Part shown: one piece after another, positions 14,820 through 22,892 of the stretch | Layout: the number at the start of each line of letters is the position of its first letter | How positions within the stretch are numbered: position 1 is the first letter of the stretch | Virus record (IMG/VR): IMGVR_UViG_3300044990_000512 | Location: 1 to 22,892 of that record | DNA from: a virus | Direction: 5' to 3' (one strand) | Length of the DNA stretch: 22,892 bases | Program-made: the position numbers and the translations under genes | The notes under the pieces: model-generated | The model's input: the letters and a program-made list of their open reading frames with translations, nothing else | Told to the model about the DNA's origin: nothing | Databases searched by the model: none

Positions 14820-15065
14820 TTAGTACATACGTTTGCGATTTACAGCTACTGGGTTTGCTTCTTTTTGCAGTTTTTTACGATACCGTGCCTTTGCTGCACC
14901 TGCTTCTCGTTTACGTTTCGTAGTTGGTTTTTCGTAAAACTCTTTTTTACGTAACGTTTCTAATTTTCCAGAGTCTTCAACTTTGCGCTTAAATCGTCTT
15001 AACGATTGTGTAATGTTTTCATTTTCGCGCATTGTTACTTTAACTCTATTCTGCATTGTTATCAT
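14820..15065 (-). CDS. rpsU: Ribosomal protein bS21 homologue
   Basis: The core VKVTMRENENITQSLRRFKR and then KLETLRKKEFYEKPTTKRKR matches bacterial bS21 closely: E. coli has KVRENE..ALRRFKR..REFYEKPT.ERKR. The protein has about 81 residues and is very basic. bS21 sits on the 30S subunit near the anti-Shine-Dalgarno end of 16S rRNA and helps initiation, and it is the ribosomal protein most often found in phages. Four in-frame ATGs lie close together (15077, 15068, 15065, 15056). I chose 15065 because GAGG is 6 nt upstream. The gene overlaps the end of the 136-aa gene by about 20 nt, so translation is probably coupled. It could replace host bS21 and bias initiation toward phage mRNAs (inference). 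Confidence 0.92.
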   Translation of the reverse strand: MITMQNRVKVTMRENENITQSLRRFKRKVEDSGKLETLRKKEFYEKPTTKRKREAGAAKARYRKKLQKEANPVAVNRKRMY

Positions 15066-15456
15066 CATCTTCCTCATTGTTAATTTGTTCTACAATCCAA
15101 TCTAAATCATATATTCTATTTTTAGAGATTAGATGGTAAGGTGTTAGTTCGTCGTTAGTTATATAGTATGCATTAGGATGGGTAAGCATAAATGTGACAA
15201 AAGATTTAGTAATCGGATCACAATTATCAACATCAATAATTACTACTGCTACTTGGTGTGTAACACTTAGTAACCAATCAATGTCTGCTTCATCGGTATC
15301 ATATATGAAAATATTAATATCTTCATCACTTTCACCAATAATTGCATGAAATTGTTCTAATACGTGCGTTGATGGTTTTACTAACAAATAACCAACATCT
15401 AAATTAAAAAATTTATCCGGAGGTGTAATAACCGTAATTTTTCCTAATGGATTCAT
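15046..15456 (-). CDS. Hypothetical protein, 136 aa, upstream of bS21
   Basis: The protein starts MNPLGKITVITPPDKFFNLD and is acidic, with an alternating strand/helix pattern (LLVKP, INIFIYD, VAVVIIDVDN, AYYITNDEL) suggesting an alpha/beta fold. It ends in a strongly acidic tail (EQINNEEDDDNNAE). The DEADIDWLLSV segment resembles TTDINWLLDV of the 81-aa protein at 4986. An AGAAGG site lies 4 nt before the ATG, in the 3' arm of a hairpin whose loop holds a late promoter. Its 3' end overlaps the bS21 gene. I recognise no function. Confidence 0.72.
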   Translation of the reverse strand: MNPLGKITVITPPDKFFNLDVGYLLVKPSTHVLEQFHAIIGESDEDINIFIYDTDEADIDWLLSVTHQVAVVIIDVDNCDPITKSFVTFMLTHPNAYYITNDELTPYHLISKNRIYDLDWIVEQINNEEDDDNNAE

Positions 15457-16359: not shown

Positions 16360-17232
16360 ATGAGAATACAAGAATTAATGGAAGCTAGAAGTGCTTCAGA
16401 TCTTACAGACGAATTGATTAGAAAAGCAAGAAGCTTATCTACGTTATATAGCATTACGTTACCTGACATTTTATCTGAATATGATTTAAATGTTGAAGAT
16501 CCATCAAATGAAATGGAAGTAGCACTTGTAGAAAAACATATTGCAGCTGCTACTCTTAGACTAGCATCAGTTAGATCAAAATGGTTTACTGAAAACTATA
16601 TGTCAGTTGGAACGCGTAGCTTAGGCCGAGGATCAGAAAAGGCAGTAGTTGGTTTAAAGTCACCACTTATTGCATTATCGCAAGTACCTCAATTTAAACG
16701 TATTGACGGCTTGCACGAGTTAGCAAATTTACCAGTAAACATGGACGCTGCAGTACGTCAAAAAGAAAAGCAAACATACGGTAAACTAATGGATGCAATT
16801 GATGAAAAATTACCAAGTGTTATGATTCAACTTGGTAAACTTATTGAAGATATGGATTTGCAAAATGCAGGATCTTCATTAGCACGTTACATTAGACAAT
16901 GGGCAACTAAAAAATCCAACGCAACTAATTATAGTAAAGATATGTCAACCGGCATTAAATTAAAAAAACAAGGTGATGCATATATTTCTACACAGAAAAA
17001 AGACTATCATAGAAATAGTGATTTAGTTAAAAAACCTGAACCTAAACCGGAAGATAACAGAGGTCAACAAAACTTGCAGGTACAAGGTATTATACAACAT
17101 GTACTTTCTCAACTTGATCCAAAAATTGCACATGAAGTTAGAACTGCTATTGCTAGAGCCGGTGATAACCAATTACAAGCATTAGGTGCTGAGTTAAGTA
17201 AACGTGGCATTCAAATGGAATCAATGTACTAA
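16360..17232 (+). CDS. Probable internal head protein with capsid-targeting-like N-terminus (290 aa)
   Basis: This is the only plus-strand gene. The N-terminus MRIQELMEARSAS has a short amphipathic segment followed by L-M-E|A, which fits the T4 prohead protease (gp21) rule of (L/I)-X-E|. T4 internal head proteins have comparable N-terminal capsid-targeting sequences. The rest is helical and charged: a helical domain (about 15-185), a Lys-rich polar linker (about 190-235, KKSNATNYSKD...KKPEPKPEDN) and a C-terminal helical domain ending RGIQMESMY. No enzyme motif is visible. It has its own late promoter and terminator. A DNA-associated core or ejected internal protein fits, but this is inference; an alternative is an unrelated structural protein. 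Confidence 0.72.
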   Translation: MRIQELMEARSASDLTDELIRKARSLSTLYSITLPDILSEYDLNVEDPSNEMEVALVEKHIAAATLRLASVRSKWFTENYMSVGTRSLGRGSEKAVVGLKSPLIALSQVPQFKRIDGLHELANLPVNMDAAVRQKEKQTYGKLMDAIDEKLPSVMIQLGKLIEDMDLQNAGSSLARYIRQWATKKSNATNYSKDMSTGIKLKKQGDAYISTQKKDYHRNSDLVKKPEPKPEDNRGQQNLQVQGIIQHVLSQLDPKIAHEVRTAIARAGDNQLQALGAELSKRGIQMESMY

Positions 17233-17245
17233 TACGTACTCATAA

Positions 17246-17271
17246 GAAAAGGGCTAAAAAGCCCTTTTTTT
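17246..17271 (+). terminator. Intrinsic, probably bidirectional terminator
   Basis: GGGCT-AAAA-AGCCC (17251-17264) is followed by seven T residues on the plus strand, 18 nt after the plus-strand gene's stop. On the minus strand it lies directly after the pqqA stop and is followed by four T residues. It therefore separates two convergent units. Confidence 0.9.
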
Positions 17272-17344
17272 AACGATTGTAAATATACATAGTGACTTCA
17301 AAGCCAAAACGTAAATCAACATACGTTGGTGTTTCCCATTTCAT
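17270..17344 (-). CDS. pqqA: PqqA, peptide precursor of pyrroloquinoline quinone (24 aa)
   Basis: The 24-codon frame ATG...TAA reads MKWETPTYVDLRFGF, then EVTMYIYNR. PqqA peptides share the pattern W-(K/x)-P-x-(F/Y)-x-DLR-(x)-G-(F/L)-EVT-(M/L)-Y and end in N/A-R. The two residues joined by the radical SAM enzyme PqqE, Glu and Tyr in E-V-T-M-Y, are at positions 16 and 20 as in canonical PqqA. The Shine-Dalgarno AAGGAGGTGAT is almost perfect, 8 nt before the ATG, and starts just after the PAAR stop. A terminator follows at once. PqqA is consumed as substrate by PqqE/PqqD, then PqqB and PqqC, none of which are in this window. Extra peptide could raise PQQ output in the infected host, or act as a decoy for PqqD/PqqE. 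Confidence 0.93.
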   Translation of the reverse strand: MKWETPTYVDLRFGFEVTMYIYNR

Positions 17345-17359
17345 AATTATCACCTCCTT

Positions 17360-17650
17360 TTATCCACCTGCAAATACGTTTCCGCTGCCTTGTGCAATTT
17401 TAGATCCGCATGCTACTGGATCTCCTATCCTACTACACTGTTTATTATTTACAAATACAGTTCCGCTACCTGCAGCTAATGTTGAATCATGACATGACGG
17501 AGATGGATCACAGTGTATTATCCAATGATCACCTTGCCGATGCACTTTGATATTATTTGCAAATACATCAGGACTGGCTTCGTCGTTTGGTCTTGCAGGC
17601 CAGCCAGCGTGTCCTGTACATTTATCACCTAATCTTGATACTGGTGGCAT
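17360..17650 (-). CDS. PAAR-domain spike tip protein (gp5.4-like)
   Basis: The 96-residue protein is close to the length of T4 gp5.4 (97). It begins MPPVSRLGDKCTGH and contains the Gly-rich PAAR pattern: IHCDPSPSCHDSTLAAGSGTV, then GDPVACGSKIAQGSGNVFAG. His and Cys residues (C11, H14, H46 region, C53 region) can supply the bound metal. PAAR proteins cap the tip of the central baseplate spike and help pierce the outer membrane, which implies a Gram-negative host. Its ATG shares one base with the stop of the upstream gene (TAATG). It is followed 15 nt later by pqqA. Confidence 0.92.
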   Translation of the reverse strand: MPPVSRLGDKCTGHAGWPARPNDEASPDVFANNIKVHRQGDHWIIHCDPSPSCHDSTLAAGSGTVFVNNKQCSRIGDPVACGSKIAQGSGNVFAGG

Positions 17651-18156
17651 TATAATGTTCCTCTTGATACAACATCTGTTAATTGGTTTTTAAATACATC
17701 CCAATGATTACATACTTTATGATCAATTACGTGTGTATGGTACTCGTATTCATCATATGAGTATCCAGGACTTTCTTCTGTACCAGGAACATCAATTGTT
17801 ATAGTTTTCTTTGTACTAACTGTATATGTAATTGGTATTTCAATTCTAGGATCATGTGTTCCACTAATTAATGCTGAGATAGTTGACGGTACTTCCGTTA
17901 TAGTTCCAATGTTATTTGTAGTTACTGAAGTAGTACTAGTACTTCCAACAGGTATGTATGACCATGTAGATTCTGCAAATACTTTATAAAACGTTCCTGA
18001 TACAGTAAACGTGCGACCTGACCATGATAAACTAACACCAATATTTGGTAATGAAGTCTCTGCAGAAAGTACAACTTCGTTCTCTCCACACGTAGCAAAC
18101 ACTGAAAAATCAAACCCGTCGTATACAAACTCAAAATTATTAGGAGATATGCTCAT
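17650..18156 (-). CDS. Hypothetical structural protein upstream of the PAAR gene (168 aa)
   Basis: I use ATG 18156 (MSISPNNFEFVYDGFDFSVF) rather than an in-frame TTG at 18174, which overlaps the promoter. The sequence is rich in Thr, Ser and beta-branched residues (WSGRTFTVSGTFYKV, STTSVTTNNIGTITEV) and has an acidic aromatic stretch (SPGYSYDEYEYHTHV). It ends NQLTDVVSRGTL and is translationally coupled to the PAAR gene. The position suggests a baseplate or spike-associated protein. No family is recognised. There is no Shine-Dalgarno; TATAAATACAGT immediately precedes the ATG. Confidence 0.7.
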   Translation of the reverse strand: MSISPNNFEFVYDGFDFSVFATCGENEVVLSAETSLPNIGVSLSWSGRTFTVSGTFYKVFAESTWSYIPVGSTSTTSVTTNNIGTITEVPSTISALISGTHDPRIEIPITYTVSTKKTITIDVPGTEESPGYSYDEYEYHTHVIDHKVCNHWDVFKNQLTDVVSRGTL

Positions 18157-18160
18157 ACTG

Positions 18161-18168
18161 TATTTATA
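18161..18168 (-). promoter_or_regulatory. Consensus T4-type late promoter TATAAATA touching a start codon
   Basis: An exact TATAAATA on the minus strand, followed by CAGT and the ATG at 18156. It would drive the unit structural protein - PAAR - pqqA down to the terminator at 17251-17264. The string ATAAATACAGTATG is the same as before the collagen-like gene. Confidence 0.7.
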
Positions 18169-18454
18169 ATACAATAAGACTAGAAGTCGCTTCTGTATAT
18201 GATTTAGCTGATTCTCTCTCGGTTGCTTCTAATACTACTACAGTTGATGCTGCAATTTTAATTGTTTTATCTGGGTCAACTGTAAACAAGTAAGGAGCCA
18301 TTCCAATACCGCCTTGTGCTGCTGTTAATACACGTGGTTTTGAAACTTTAATGTATTTTTCTGTTTCTTCAACTAGCGATGCAATAAGTTCTTCACCTGA
18401 AGTTAATTTAAGAGTTACTACTTCGCCTGGTGATACGCCTTTATCTATAATCAT
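18164..18454 (-). CDS. Sm/Lsm-like small protein (96 aa)
   Basis: MIIDKGVSPGEVVTLKLTSG, then EELIASLVEE, shows an Sm-like strand pattern (V-L-L--GE-L-A-L-EE), and -VSKPRVLT...APYLFTVDPD..I-I....V..L- completes a small barrel. Proteins of this type are frequent in T4-like cyanophages (from memory). Their role is unknown, but the Sm fold suggests an RNA-binding ring. The gene starts 14 nt inside the glutaredoxin gene, with AAAGG before the ATG. Its stop lies within the late promoter of the next unit. Confidence 0.7.
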   Translation of the reverse strand: MIIDKGVSPGEVVTLKLTSGEELIASLVEETEKYIKVSKPRVLTAAQGGIGMAPYLFTVDPDKTIKIAASTVVVLEATERESAKSYTEATSSLIVL

Positions 18455-18683
18455 AATTTGCCTTTAAGTATTGTTGTAATTCTGAAAAACCACCAATGTA
18501 ATTGCCATCAATTTGAATCTGTGGTAGTGTTCTTGCTGTTGGTACTTCTTCTAATAGTTGTTCTTTAGTCCATCCACCATTTGAAATGTTTCGTTCTTCA
18601 AAGTTGATGTTTTTCATTTGTAACAAGCTCTTAGCTTGCACACAGTAACTGCACTGGTCCTTTGACCATATAATTGCTGTCAT
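18441..18683 (-). CDS. Glutaredoxin (NrdC-like)
   Basis: The 80-residue protein has MTAIIWSKDQCSYC, with the redox pair C11 and C14, the cis-Pro loop TLPQIQIDG (Pro54) and the glutathione-site motif GGFSEL (64-69). It fits the glutaredoxin/T4 NrdC family (NrdC has 87 residues). It would reduce the active-site disulfide of the phage ribonucleotide reductase using glutathione or a reductase. It starts with ATGA overlap on the 53-aa gene and lies a short way downstream of nrdB, as expected for a shared dNTP-supply unit. Confidence 0.92.
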   Translation of the reverse strand: MTAIIWSKDQCSYCVQAKSLLQMKNINFEERNISNGGWTKEQLLEEVPTARTLPQIQIDGNYIGGFSELQQYLKANYDYR

Positions 18684-18841: not shown

Positions 18842-18986
18842 TGTTCATAGCCTCTACGTCTGTCTTAGTCCATAATTCATATGATGGTTGTTTTCCTTCT
18901 CTAAGCATTTCGCATGGACATACAGGATCATCGCCCTGCGGTCCCATGCATGCACAAATGTCGTTACAATGTTGGTAATTCGTCAT
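18801..18986 (-). CDS. Cys-rich small protein, 61 aa, after nrdB
   Basis: MTNYQHCNDICACMGPQGDD, then PVCPCEMLREG, gives the pattern C-x3-C-x-C-x9-C-x-C (C7, C11, C13, C23, C25), a likely small metal or Fe-S site. The C-terminal half is plain and helical (KTDVEAMNNAVGQIFKKIS). It starts 23 nt inside nrdB in another frame and is followed by the overlapping 53-aa gene. The position in the nrdB-glutaredoxin unit suggests a part in ribonucleotide reductase assembly or redox balance, but this is only context. Confidence 0.72.
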   Translation of the reverse strand: MTNYQHCNDICACMGPQGDDPVCPCEMLREGKQPSYELWTKTDVEAMNNAVGQIFKKISQG

Positions 18987-20058
18987 AATCTAATTCGTCA
19001 CTCATAACGCCAATAACGTAGTTAACACTTTCAGATTCTTGTAAAGCAGTTTGCTTTTTACTCGGGTCGGAATGTTTGTTAAACCACGGTATAGGTGTTG
19101 ATTTAGGAGCTGTTTCGCGATACTTAATACCAACTTCTTTTAAAGCGTGTACTGCAGTATAGTCAACAAATTCTTTTAAGATGTTAGCATTAAGTCCAAT
19201 TACTGGACCTTTTAAGAATAAGTAATCTGCCCATTCTTTTTCTTCTCTAATCACATCTAAGTACATATTATACACTATTTCTTCGCACTCTGCTTTAATT
19301 TCGGTAAAACGCGGATCATCTTTTATTACCAAATTGATCATATAAGCAGTCCACTCTTTGTGTAACAGCTCGTCTTGTAAAATTAATGCAATAATATTAC
19401 CGTTACCAATAAACAGCCTGTTTTCGACCATTGCTAAACTAGTAGCAAATGATACCATAAATCGGAATGCTTCTAATGCATAACTTGCGTGTAGTGCAAG
19501 CCAAATAGCTTTAATGTGGTCTCTTTCAAGAACTTCAATACCAAGTTCTTTTTGACAGTTAAGTTTATGCAATCTATTGTAGTATTTGCCAACACTACTT
19601 GCCATGTCAACAATTTCTTTAGTATCATGTATAGTGTTAAATATCTCTTTTGGAATGTTATAGATATTACGAATAATATGGCTATAACTGCGACTATGAA
19701 TATTTGACTCATAGAAGCCCCAGTTAAGCATTAGCAGTTCTGCTTCAGGTACACTTACTACAGGTGTAAACACTTGTGTAGGTCCGCGGCCTTGCAAACT
19801 ATCTAATGCAGTTTGTCTTAGTAAGTTACTAGTGAATATATGCTTAACTGCATCACTCGCATCTTTAAAATCGTTAGCATCTTTACTTAATGATATTTCT
19901 TCTGGTGTCCAAAAGAAACCTCTAGCAGTAGCTTCATATTTTTGAATACGCGGATACCGTACTTCTTCAAATCGTTGAATTGTAACGGTACCGTCTAGAA
20001 ATAACTTTCTAGACAAGTAGTTAGTGTGTTCACCTAAATTATATTGTTCTTCACTCAT
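18964..20058 (-). CDS. nrdB: Class I ribonucleotide reductase, small (radical) subunit NrdB
   Basis: The 364-residue protein (E. coli NrdB has 376) carries the di-metal and radical motifs: D63, E117, H121 in NIHSRSYSHIIRNI, radical Tyr125, E212 in MVENRLFIGNG, E230 and H233 in QDELLH. The C-terminal tail DELDYDELPTL would dock on NrdA. The spacing between E117 and H121 is one residue longer than in E. coli (E-S-N-I-H against E-T-I-H). It supplies dNTPs for phage replication together with NrdA and the nearby glutaredoxin. Its ATG follows the stop of the 86-aa gene by 2 nt. Confidence 0.95.
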   Translation of the reverse strand: MSEEQYNLGEHTNYLSRKLFLDGTVTIQRFEEVRYPRIQKYEATARGFFWTPEEISLSKDANDFKDASDAVKHIFTSNLLRQTALDSLQGRGPTQVFTPVVSVPEAELLMLNWGFYESNIHSRSYSHIIRNIYNIPKEIFNTIHDTKEIVDMASSVGKYYNRLHKLNCQKELGIEVLERDHIKAIWLALHASYALEAFRFMVSFATSLAMVENRLFIGNGNIIALILQDELLHKEWTAYMINLVIKDDPRFTEIKAECEEIVYNMYLDVIREEKEWADYLFLKGPVIGLNANILKEFVDYTAVHALKEVGIKYRETAPKSTPIPWFNKHSDPSKKQTALQESESVNYVIGVMSDELDYDELPTL

Positions 20059-20852: not shown

Positions 20853-21019
20853 TTTTTAAGTATCCCTAATGATACCAACAGTAAGCATACTGCAATTAGA
20901 ATCATTTCAGATTGCGTTTGAATGTGCTTAACTGCGTGTCTTGTTAAATAAGCAGCCTTCCACTTATAATACGGAAGGCCTCCGTTTTCTATTGCGTGTA
21001 AATTAACTAACTGTTTCAT
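20849..21019 (-). CDS. Small membrane protein, 56 aa
   Basis: The frame starts at ATG 21019 (MKQLVNLHAIENGGLPYYKW), continues KAAYLTRHAVKHIQTQSEM and ends in one hydrophobic helix (ILIAVCLLLVSLGIL) followed by KK. It overlaps the SOD gene end by 17 nt and the next gene by 4 nt (ATGA). It fills a gap of 150 nt that otherwise would be empty, which supports it. The single C-terminal helix with a basic end suggests a tail-anchored inner-membrane protein. No family recognised. Confidence 0.68.
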   Translation of the reverse strand: MKQLVNLHAIENGGLPYYKWKAAYLTRHAVKHIQTQSEMILIAVCLLLVSLGILKK

Positions 21020-21554
21020 TTATGTAGTTCCAGTTTATTATTTTCCATTGGTTTTCTAAATACTTTTTCTTATCTGATTGATAGTCTAACGCCCATGCAT
21101 GTTCCCACCAGTCAACTAACAGTACAATGTCTTTTTTAATAGCATGATTAGTTATTGTTTTAATCTTACCATTTTTAGCAAGATAAACCCAACCACTGCC
21201 TTGTATGCCCATTGCTACTTTTAAAAACTCTTCTTTAAACTTATCAAAAGTTTTATAATGTGTTTCAATTAACTCTAACACGTTGCCAACTGGCTTGTTT
21301 AGGTTGCCAGTTGACTCTTGATACTGTTGGAATAAGATGTTGTGTAAAAATACGCCTGCTTCGTTAAACACAGGATCACCTTCTCCTGCATTATAACGCT
21401 TTGCGTATGTTTTAGCAAGATGTTCGTAATGATATTCTAATGTTGCTTTTGAGATAGCAGGGCTTAAATCGTCCATACTGTACGGTAACGCATCTATTTT
21501 TAAAGATGCTGGCTTACCTTCAGTAATAAATTGTTTAATGAAACTATAGCTCAT
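21003..21554 (-). CDS. sod: Fe/Mn-type superoxide dismutase with a capsid-targeting-like N-terminus
   Basis: The 183-residue protein matches the Fe/Mn SOD family: IDALPYSMDDLSPAISKATL, then EYHYEHLAKTY with ligand H42 and Tyr50, VFLHN with ligand H71, GSGWVYLAKNG, and VDWWEHAWALDY with ligands D148 and H152. The second-sphere Gln seems replaced by His137 (TNHA), and the His next to the first ligand site is Leu46. The first 12 residues, MSYSFIKQFITE, are extra to the family and end in I-T-E|G, which fits a T4 gp21 protease site. The enzyme converts superoxide to peroxide and oxygen. The gene starts with an ATGA overlap on the HNH gene. Metal choice (Fe or Mn) cannot be told. Confidence 0.92.
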   Translation of the reverse strand: MSYSFIKQFITEGKPASLKIDALPYSMDDLSPAISKATLEYHYEHLAKTYAKRYNAGEGDPVFNEAGVFLHNILFQQYQESTGNLNKPVGNVLELIETHYKTFDKFKEEFLKVAMGIQGSGWVYLAKNGKIKTITNHAIKKDIVLLVDWWEHAWALDYQSDKKKYLENQWKIINWNYINETVS

Positions 21555-22249
21555 AATTTATTCCATTCTATATCTTGAGTAGGTATCCAACCATTCCTAA
21601 AATATTTTACCATATTCATAAATGGACCTATTTCCTTACCGTGATTCTTATTTTGCCAATCATACTTCTTGTCCATGACTAATCCAAATAGTTTACAGTA
21701 AGATGGCATATTATGTGCTACCCATGTATCATAAATTGCATCAGCTCTTTTCCATAGTGCTAGTGTAACATCGGTTGTTCTTGGATGTTTCCACGGTTTA
21801 ATTCCGGCACACGGATTATGTTCTCCTATCATTTTATCTGATAACACTTTTTTACCTTCTTTTGTAAAATGGTTAGGAGAAAGAGGTTTTCCAAATGCAT
21901 AATGCTGTTCTCCTTTAATAGGGTTTAGTTTTTGTGGATTGTTAGGGCCGCGCATATAATCGGAAAATTGTCGTTTTAACCACCCGTATGCTTTATTATT
22001 GCGTTGATGATTGCTGTTTGACGATGCCATAAATATAGCAGCCTTAACTAATCTAATATTTTTAGGATATATTTTAACTAACAACAGATGGCACAAATAA
22101 TGCTCTTCTGGAGTTAGGAATACTAAGTTATTTGTATCATCAGTTCCTCCCATACATCTTGGAATAATATGATGTTTTTCTTTGTATCCCTCTAACAATC
22201 TAGTTTGTCCCCTAATTATTATATCATTGTATATTTTTTGATAATTCAT
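21551..22249 (-). CDS. HNH homing endonuclease with NUMOD3-like repeats
   Basis: The 232-residue protein has the HNH core EKHHIIPRCMGGTDDTNNLV (H26, H27, N41) and a third His in LTPEEHYLCH (H50). Downstream GPNNP, GEQHYAFGKPL and GEHNPCAGIKPW look like NUMOD3-type DNA-binding repeats, usual in phage GIY-YIG and HNH homing enzymes. It is free-standing between nrdA and the SOD gene, a common landing zone near nrd genes. It would cut the matching locus of related phages lacking it. AGGAG precedes the ATG, and an AATAAATA late motif lies in the hairpin loop upstream. Its stop overlaps the SOD start (ATGA). Confidence 0.9.
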   Translation of the reverse strand: MNYQKIYNDIIIRGQTRLLEGYKEKHHIIPRCMGGTDDTNNLVFLTPEEHYLCHLLLVKIYPKNIRLVKAAIFMASSNSNHQRNNKAYGWLKRQFSDYMRGPNNPQKLNPIKGEQHYAFGKPLSPNHFTKEGKKVLSDKMIGEHNPCAGIKPWKHPRTTDVTLALWKRADAIYDTWVAHNMPSYCKLFGLVMDKKYDWQNKNHGKEIGPFMNMVKYFRNGWIPTQDIEWNKL

Positions 22250-22304: not shown

Positions 22305-22892
22305 CTACAACTTACAAGATTCACAACCTTCTTCATCGTCCTCAATAATTGCACTAGGTAAATCAACTTCGGCTTCTTCTTTACTACCTTGTTTATTCAC
22401 TAGGCTGTAATAAAAGGTTTTGATCCCCCATTTAAGTCCTAACATTAAGTTTTTAGCAATTAGTGTAGTTGGTACTTTTCTACCTTCAAAGTGTGCAGGG
22501 TTGTAAAAAGTATCAGTACTAATAGATTGATCAATGTATGCAGCTAATACTGCAGCAGTTTTTAAATAACCTACGCAATCAGTTTGATCCCACATAAGCT
22601 GATATTTGTTTTTCAACTTATGATATTCCGGAACTACTTGTGTAAGTGAACCTGATTTTGATTCTTTAGTTTGTATTAAATGCATTGGCATTGCAATGCC
22701 GTTAGTTGAGTTAATCACTACACTAGAACTTTCAACTGGAGCAATAGCACCTACTGTAGCATTACGTACACCGTACTCTTTCATATCAGAACGCAATGGT
22801 TCCCAATCAAGTTCCGGAGTAAAGTCAGTTAATTCATTAACTCCGTCTGCACGTAATTCCCATGGAAAGATACCTTGTCCGTACCGTGTTTT
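22305..22892 (-). CDS. nrdA: Class I ribonucleotide reductase, large subunit NrdA, C-terminal part
   Basis: The reading frame enters from the right edge (KTRYGQGIFPWELRADGVNE...) and gives 195 residues of the C-terminus. Recognisable parts are RNATVGAIAPVESSSVVINS, matching the E. coli active-site region RNSTLSALMPSETSSQ; DQSIS; the tyrosine pair in IKTFYYSL, matching the radical-transfer Tyr730/731; and the terminal GCESCKL with the CxxC that shuttles reducing power to the active site. The subunit reduces ribonucleoside diphosphates with NrdB and is recharged by glutaredoxin or thioredoxin. The start is outside the window. Confidence 0.95.
   Translation of the reverse strand, partial: KTRYGQGIFPWELRADGVNELTDFTPELDWEPLRSDMKEYGVRNATVGAIAPVESSSVVINSTNGIAMPMHLIQTKESKSGSLTQVVPEYHKLKNKYQLMWDQTDCVGYLKTAAVLAAYIDQSISTDTFYNPAHFEGRKVPTTLIAKNLMLGLKWGIKTFYYSLVNKQGSKEEAEVDLPSAIIEDDEEGCESCKL

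Follow-up and report, generated by a model that had tools for sequence, protein, structure and literature searches.

A standalone pqqA gene in a T4-type jumbo phage lineage, predicted to feed PQQ synthesis in a probably methane-oxidising host

Introduction

The cofactor PQQ derives from two residues, a Glu and a Tyr, of the precursor peptide PqqA, so that each PQQ uses up one peptide; PqqB, C, D and E are reusable. Why, then, would a virus carry pqqA and no other pqq gene? The question is raised by a viral record of 22,892 bases, analysed here over its whole length (the window), in which a 24-codon PqqA gene had been predicted from the sequence. Here, we ask whether this gene is genuinely pqqA, how it is likely to be expressed, which viruses carry it, and whether it could serve as a substrate for the enzymes of the host.

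Results

Identity of the gene

The ORF was found exactly where it had been predicted, at positions 17270-17344 on the minus strand, with an ATG at 17344, a TAA at 17270-17272 and 24 codons. Its product, the 24-residue peptide MKWETPTYVDLRFGFEVTMYIYNR, was scored against PqqA profiles, the check that the original prediction had proposed, and matched both Pfam PF08042 (42.8 bits, E = 4.6e-11, 19 of 19 profile positions; cut-off 21.1) and the NCBIfam equivalog TIGR02107 (44.8 bits, E = 7.4e-12, 21 of 21 profile positions; cut-off 20). Scanned end to end in all six frames, the record contained this single PqqA match, and 14 control genomes contained none; a PDB search with the 24-mer gave chance matches only. 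Counted from Met1, the Glu and the Tyr that become PQQ are E16 and Y20, the pair that had been singled out beforehand, with three residues between them. By every test run, the ORF is confirmed at the sequence level as a member of the PqqA family. It resembles bacterial PqqA (PF08042/TIGR02107) in length, in its full-profile match, in the Glu16/Tyr20 pair and in the RFGFEVTMY motif. Unlike its bacterial counterparts, however, the gene is not located beside pqqB-E, is part of a phage late unit and has an unusually strong Shine-Dalgarno sequence. As had been claimed, pqqA stands without another pqq gene at its side, and none was found in the window.

Gene setting and predicted expression

The gene is the last of a three-gene unit with the order late promoter site, first gene, PAAR gene, pqqA and terminator. 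The first gene (17650-18156, minus strand), for which no function is assigned, likely starts at the ATG at 18156 and not at the TTG at 18174. A candidate T4-type late promoter, TATAAATA (18161-18168, minus strand), is found 12 nt before this ATG. The octamer, the core of the T4 late promoter, occurs once in the window against 5.0 copies expected by chance; it is thus depleted, and the placement of its sole copy where a gene begins would fit avoidance at other sites. In two relatives (L289 and L316), CATAAATA is present with the same spacing, and in two others (L306 and L313), TATAAATA precedes the PAAR gene itself. That the only copy is well placed and is kept in relatives supports a late setting for pqqA. 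Late expression of the gene is therefore well supported as a prediction, its timing being read from a consensus promoter site.

Directly upstream of pqqA, a gene for a PAAR-domain spike-tip protein (17360-17650, minus strand; PF05488, 43.5 bits; phrog_281) ends 15 nt before the pqqA start codon. The Shine-Dalgarno sequence of pqqA, AAGGAGGTGAT (17349-17359, minus strand), lies immediately 3' of the PAAR stop codon. It had been described as almost perfect, and its 11 nt are complementary to the 16S tail with a duplex energy of -18.9 kcal/mol, the strongest among the 21 genes of the window (the runner-up is at -7.4 kcal/mol). Downstream, a terminator hairpin, AAAAGGGCT-TTTT-AGCCCTTTT (17247-17268, minus strand; z -3.9), separates pqqA from a convergent plus-strand gene (16360-17232), a homologue of which occupies the same place in relatives. 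The stem of the hairpin is also kept in relatives, with an altered loop (GGGCTAATTAGCCC). The position of pqqA between the PAAR gene and a terminator is thus as initially described.

The original prediction further placed pqqA in a late tail operon. The TATAAATA site supports the first part of this description, but a purely tail operon is not what we found, as nrdA, HNH, sod, nrdB and glutaredoxin genes lie upstream on the same strand. The minus-strand run begins with the end of nrdA (22305-22796, coding for the C-terminal part of NrdA; phrog_84) and continues with the HNH gene and the genes for an Fe/Mn superoxide dismutase (21003-21554), for NrdB, the small subunit of ribonucleotide reductase (18964-20058), for a glutaredoxin (18441-18683; PF00462) and for a phrog_527 protein (18164-18454; phrog match) common to T4-type cyanophages and Methylophilales phages; the late unit (its first gene, the PAAR gene and pqqA) and the terminator complete it. 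Only the C-terminal piece of NrdA is encoded, with an HNH homing endonuclease gene adjoining it (21551-22249), and a group I intron or a split nrdA past the edge of the window is possible. Rfam and tRNA scans of the window returned nothing. A gene for a ribosomal protein S21-like product (phrog_21469) is found at 14820-15077.

The jumbo phage lineage and its probable host

A pattern for the window-type peptide in which the Glu/Tyr half was left free matched 46 viral stretches, and about a dozen of these loci have many other window genes in common. Occurrence of pqqA next to a PAAR gene in related phages, also proposed as a check, was found in 12 loci (L289, L303, L305, L306, L311, L313, L314, L316, L318, L320, L324 and L327), two of which are on contigs of 372,016 and 372,173 bases. 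Identity between the PAAR proteins of these relatives falls to 36-42%; PqqA is identical at 23-24 of the 24 positions in most of them and at 20 of 24 in L305 and L318. Both contigs of about 372 kb (relatives G380 and G381) carry a gene for the T4 Gp23 capsid protein, which is absent from the window fragment. Therefore, judged from the shared genes, the size of these relatives and the Gp23 gene that they carry, the window is a 22.9-kb piece of a genome from a T4-type lineage of jumbo phages. The portal, terminase and tail genes of other window-type contigs show that these belong to several phage lineages.

The jumbo contigs are of metagenomic origin, and known hosts are those of methylophage isolates only. 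We compared the window peptide with the PqqAs of 369 genomes of the class to which a Methylophilaceae genome belongs. The nearest were those of G356 and G260 (92% identity), followed by G039 and others (88%); pmoA is present in G356, G260 and G039, and some of the other genomes at 88% are without it. In addition, pmoC was detected in the jumbo relatives G381 and G382 (404 bits); phage PmoC and G260 PmoC share 86% identity. The latter is nearly identical to chain C of PDB 6cxh, presumably from Methylotuvimicrobium alcaliphilum. No pmoC was found on the 372-kb contig of G380, which has pqqA, and no PQQ dehydrogenase was found in the jumbo relatives. As both the phage PqqA and the phage PmoC resemble those of the pmoA-bearing G260, two independent host-like genes suggest that the host of the window phage is probably a gammaproteobacterial methanotroph. 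Methylophilaceae are not our first-choice host, since the PqqAs of the Methylophilaceae genome G001 are only 52-57% identical to that of the window, as compared to up to 92% for methanotrophs. A PQQ-making host such as a methylotroph had been anticipated; the pmoA-bearing genomes and the pmoC-carrying sister phages agree with a C1-oxidising PQQ maker, but they favour a methanotroph over a plain methylotroph. Phages of methylotrophs carry pqqA too. A C1-oxidising, PQQ-making host is a matter of record for the isolates, and is suggested by PqqA and PmoC similarity for the window phage.

Standalone pqqA in other viruses

Among 50,697 phage records searched with tblastn, pqqA was found only in phages of Methylophilales/Methylophilaceae, in one environmental podovirus and in one contaminated assembly; two different PqqA queries returned the same set of records. 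The contaminated assembly, "Acinetobacter phage MD-2021a" (CAKLQF020000010.1; two contigs matched), is plainly a bacterial chromosome in which pqqA is accompanied by pqqB-E. This record illustrates how host DNA mis-sorted as viral could produce an apparent phage pqqA. The window, however, carries phage structural genes, NrdAB and PAAR, its relatives of about 372 kb have the Gp23 gene, and cultured phages also have pqqA. We accept contamination for the Acinetobacter record and rule it out for the window and the isolates; as a general explanation of viral pqqA it is extremely improbable.

Nine records of OM43/LD28 methylophage isolates have pqqA (four Melnitz records, P19250A, MEP401, MEP402, Venkman and MEP301). 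In all of them the gene is unannotated or lies under a hypothetical gene on the opposite strand, in line with the expectation that genes this short escape annotation. With three patterns combined, two of which gave at least 120 matches each, at least about 190-200 distinct IMG/VR contigs have a viral pqqA. No pqqB-E genes were found beside pqqA at any viral locus examined, and in 18 viral genomes no pqqE scored above the cut-off, which is what supply of those enzymes by the host would predict.

The neighbours of pqqA vary among these viruses. This bears on the possibility that the peptide has a moonlighting role unrelated to PQQ synthesis, such as one involving the PAAR spike or the handling of lanthanides. 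The adjacency to PAAR in the jumbo lineage would fit such a role, as would a speculation, in PMC11317620, that PqqA could belong to an alternative lanthanide uptake system. However, pqqA is beside tRNA-Leu in Melnitz and beside other genes in the smaller phages, so that PAAR is not a constant partner, and the conservation of Glu and Tyr (see below) fits the known chemistry. We regard a role of this kind as unlikely.

On a viral contig of 72 kb (IMGVR_UViG_3300025120_009955), a full PQQ alcohol/methanol dehydrogenase gene (34049-35731) and pqqA (41887-41943) are about 6 kb apart. Contigs with pmoC have pqqA in 6 of 38 cases, and in 4 of 11 when at least 100 kb long. Thus, the proposition that all pmoC-phages carry pqqA is unsupported. 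In several viral contigs (L387, L391, L418 and L419), pmoC is split or flanked by group I introns (Rfam RF00028, 69-94 bits); in the open-licence literature we found no report that brings together pmoC, phages and a group I intron.

We think it fairly likely that standalone pqqA is a recurrent and repeatedly acquired hallmark of viruses of methanol and methane oxidisers, across T4-type, jumbo and smaller tailed lineages, and that it represents a psbA-like supply of a consumed peptide, with a single 24-codon gene, missed by annotation, tuning C1 oxidation.

Residue conservation and selection

Loss of E16 or Y20 in related phages would speak against a substrate role, a test that had been suggested for the original prediction. 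Both residues are kept in all 124 viral copies of the Methylophilales type listed (124/124), even though both codons were free in the search pattern. With the codons fixed by the patterns excluded, pN/pS is 0.090 for the Methylophilales type and 0.134 for the window type; viral pqqA is under purifying selection, with a pN/pS of about 0.1. The Shine-Dalgarno sequences of viral pqqA are stronger than those of other phage ORFs (median energies -8.1 and -5.8), but the p-values are not to be taken at face value, because the start codons of the other ORFs were called only roughly and closely related contigs are included. Moreover, one peptide, MWTTPAATEMRFGFEVTMYVMNK, is found letter for letter in 20 viral and 57 host copies.

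These observations bear on two alternatives. In the first, raised by the original prediction itself, the phage peptide is a decoy that occupies PqqD/PqqE without yielding PQQ, so that methanol dehydrogenase lacks its cofactor and the metabolism of the host is diverted or stopped. PqqD and PqqE bind PqqA, so a mimic could compete, and the strong Shine-Dalgarno sequence of pqqA would suit it. Yet a decoy has no need of the cross-linked residues, both of which are strictly conserved, and viral peptides are often identical to those of the host; furthermore, some phages have pmoC or a PQQ dehydrogenase on the contig that carries pqqA, which suggests that C1 oxidation is supported and not blocked. 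The strict conservation of Glu and Tyr, together with the signature of selection, fits a functional substrate and makes a decoy quite unlikely.

In the second, pqqA is a passenger, frequently picked up from the many orphan copies of hosts and retained without benefit. Capture would be easy from hosts with one to nine dispersed copies: we counted 1-7 across five Methylophilaceae genomes, and the bacterial genome G171 has nine, a number that may reflect dosage. Against this, pN/pS is low, the Shine-Dalgarno sequence is retained, as is the place beside a diverging PAAR gene, and the nine sequenced OM43/LD28 phage records belong to several unrelated lineages. Neutral carriage thus seems very unlikely.

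Discussion

We conclude, with a probability of roughly three in four, that the window encodes a genuine phage PqqA which is made late and feeds the consumed precursor into the pathway, so that PQQ synthesis by the host, for its methanol dehydrogenase, may continue during infection. The sequence features behind this reading are the identity of the gene, the cross-link residues, the signature of selection, the strong Shine-Dalgarno sequence, the late-promoter-like site, the methanotroph-type genes and the recurrence in other viruses; processing by the PqqE and PqqD of the host, a rise in PQQ and a benefit to the phage are what we infer from them. The phage would contribute only PqqA, which PQQ synthesis consumes one for one, and the reusable PqqB, C, D and E of the host would process the phage peptide. 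Shutdown of the host by the phage would cost the supply of peptide first, and pqqA alone could restore it. The level of PQQ, and with it the periplasmic PQQ methanol dehydrogenase of the host, would then be sustained after host gene expression declines, and energy from methane or methanol may be kept flowing until lysis, to the benefit of the phage.

Several reports bear on whether one additional gene could matter. The availability of PqqA is described as rate-determining in Methylovorus MP688 (Ge 2015, as cited in PMC11317620), and a methylotrophic PQQ producer with five pqqA copies requires PQQ in large amounts (PMC9851590). Conversely, pqqA has been reported as non-essential in M. extorquens AM1 (Toyama and Lidstrom 1998, as cited in PMC11317620), in work that, according to the citing paper, did not examine orphan copies. 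Since hosts already have one to nine copies, the effect of another could be small, except where the phage stops expression of the host genes. In addition, the 4 of 11 long pmoC contigs with pqqA indicate that the gene is not universal in the pmoC group.

Cyanophage psbA offers a parallel, in that the phage replaces a short-lived part of the energy machinery of the host. The likeness lies in the supply of a consumed or short-lived component; PqqA, however, is a peptide substrate, whereas the psbA product is a protein subunit. Phage pqqA has been reported before, in the Lake Baikal Methylophilaceae phage population VP_266 (Coutinho 2020, PMC7678222), and a reservoir paper of 2026 (PMC13188868) lists it as well. 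The Lake Baikal report, like ours, assigns phage pqqA an auxiliary part in methanol oxidation, and the 72-kb contig described above resembles it in combining a PQQ alcohol dehydrogenase with pqqA; VP_266, however, is a methylotroph phage with methanol dehydrogenase, whereas the window belongs to a methanotroph-type jumbo lineage and the gene recurs in many lineages. Similarly, the pmoC-phages (Chen 2020, PMC7674155) are large phages of aquatic methanotrophs, and two of the jumbo relatives have pmoC, but pmoC is absent from the 22.9-kb fragment and from one 372-kb relative. The main text of the pmoC-phage paper does not mention pqq, the Melnitz paper mentions PQQ only as a vitamin of the medium, and passages of the MEP401/402 paper list other auxiliary genes. 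Within the open-licence literature, the occurrence of the gene in methanotroph jumbo phages, in a late unit and in nine isolate records, the breadth of its distribution and the tests of Glu/Tyr conservation and selection appear new.

Phage genes with only about 24 codons readily escape notice, and the auxiliary metabolic genes of phages can include those for the precursor peptides of modified-peptide pathways. Aerobic methanotrophs and methylotrophs govern the release of methane and methanol from waters and soils, and PQQ is required for their methanol-oxidising step. Routine feeding of the PQQ pathway by phages, if it occurs, may allow infected cells to go on oxidising C1 compounds until lysis.
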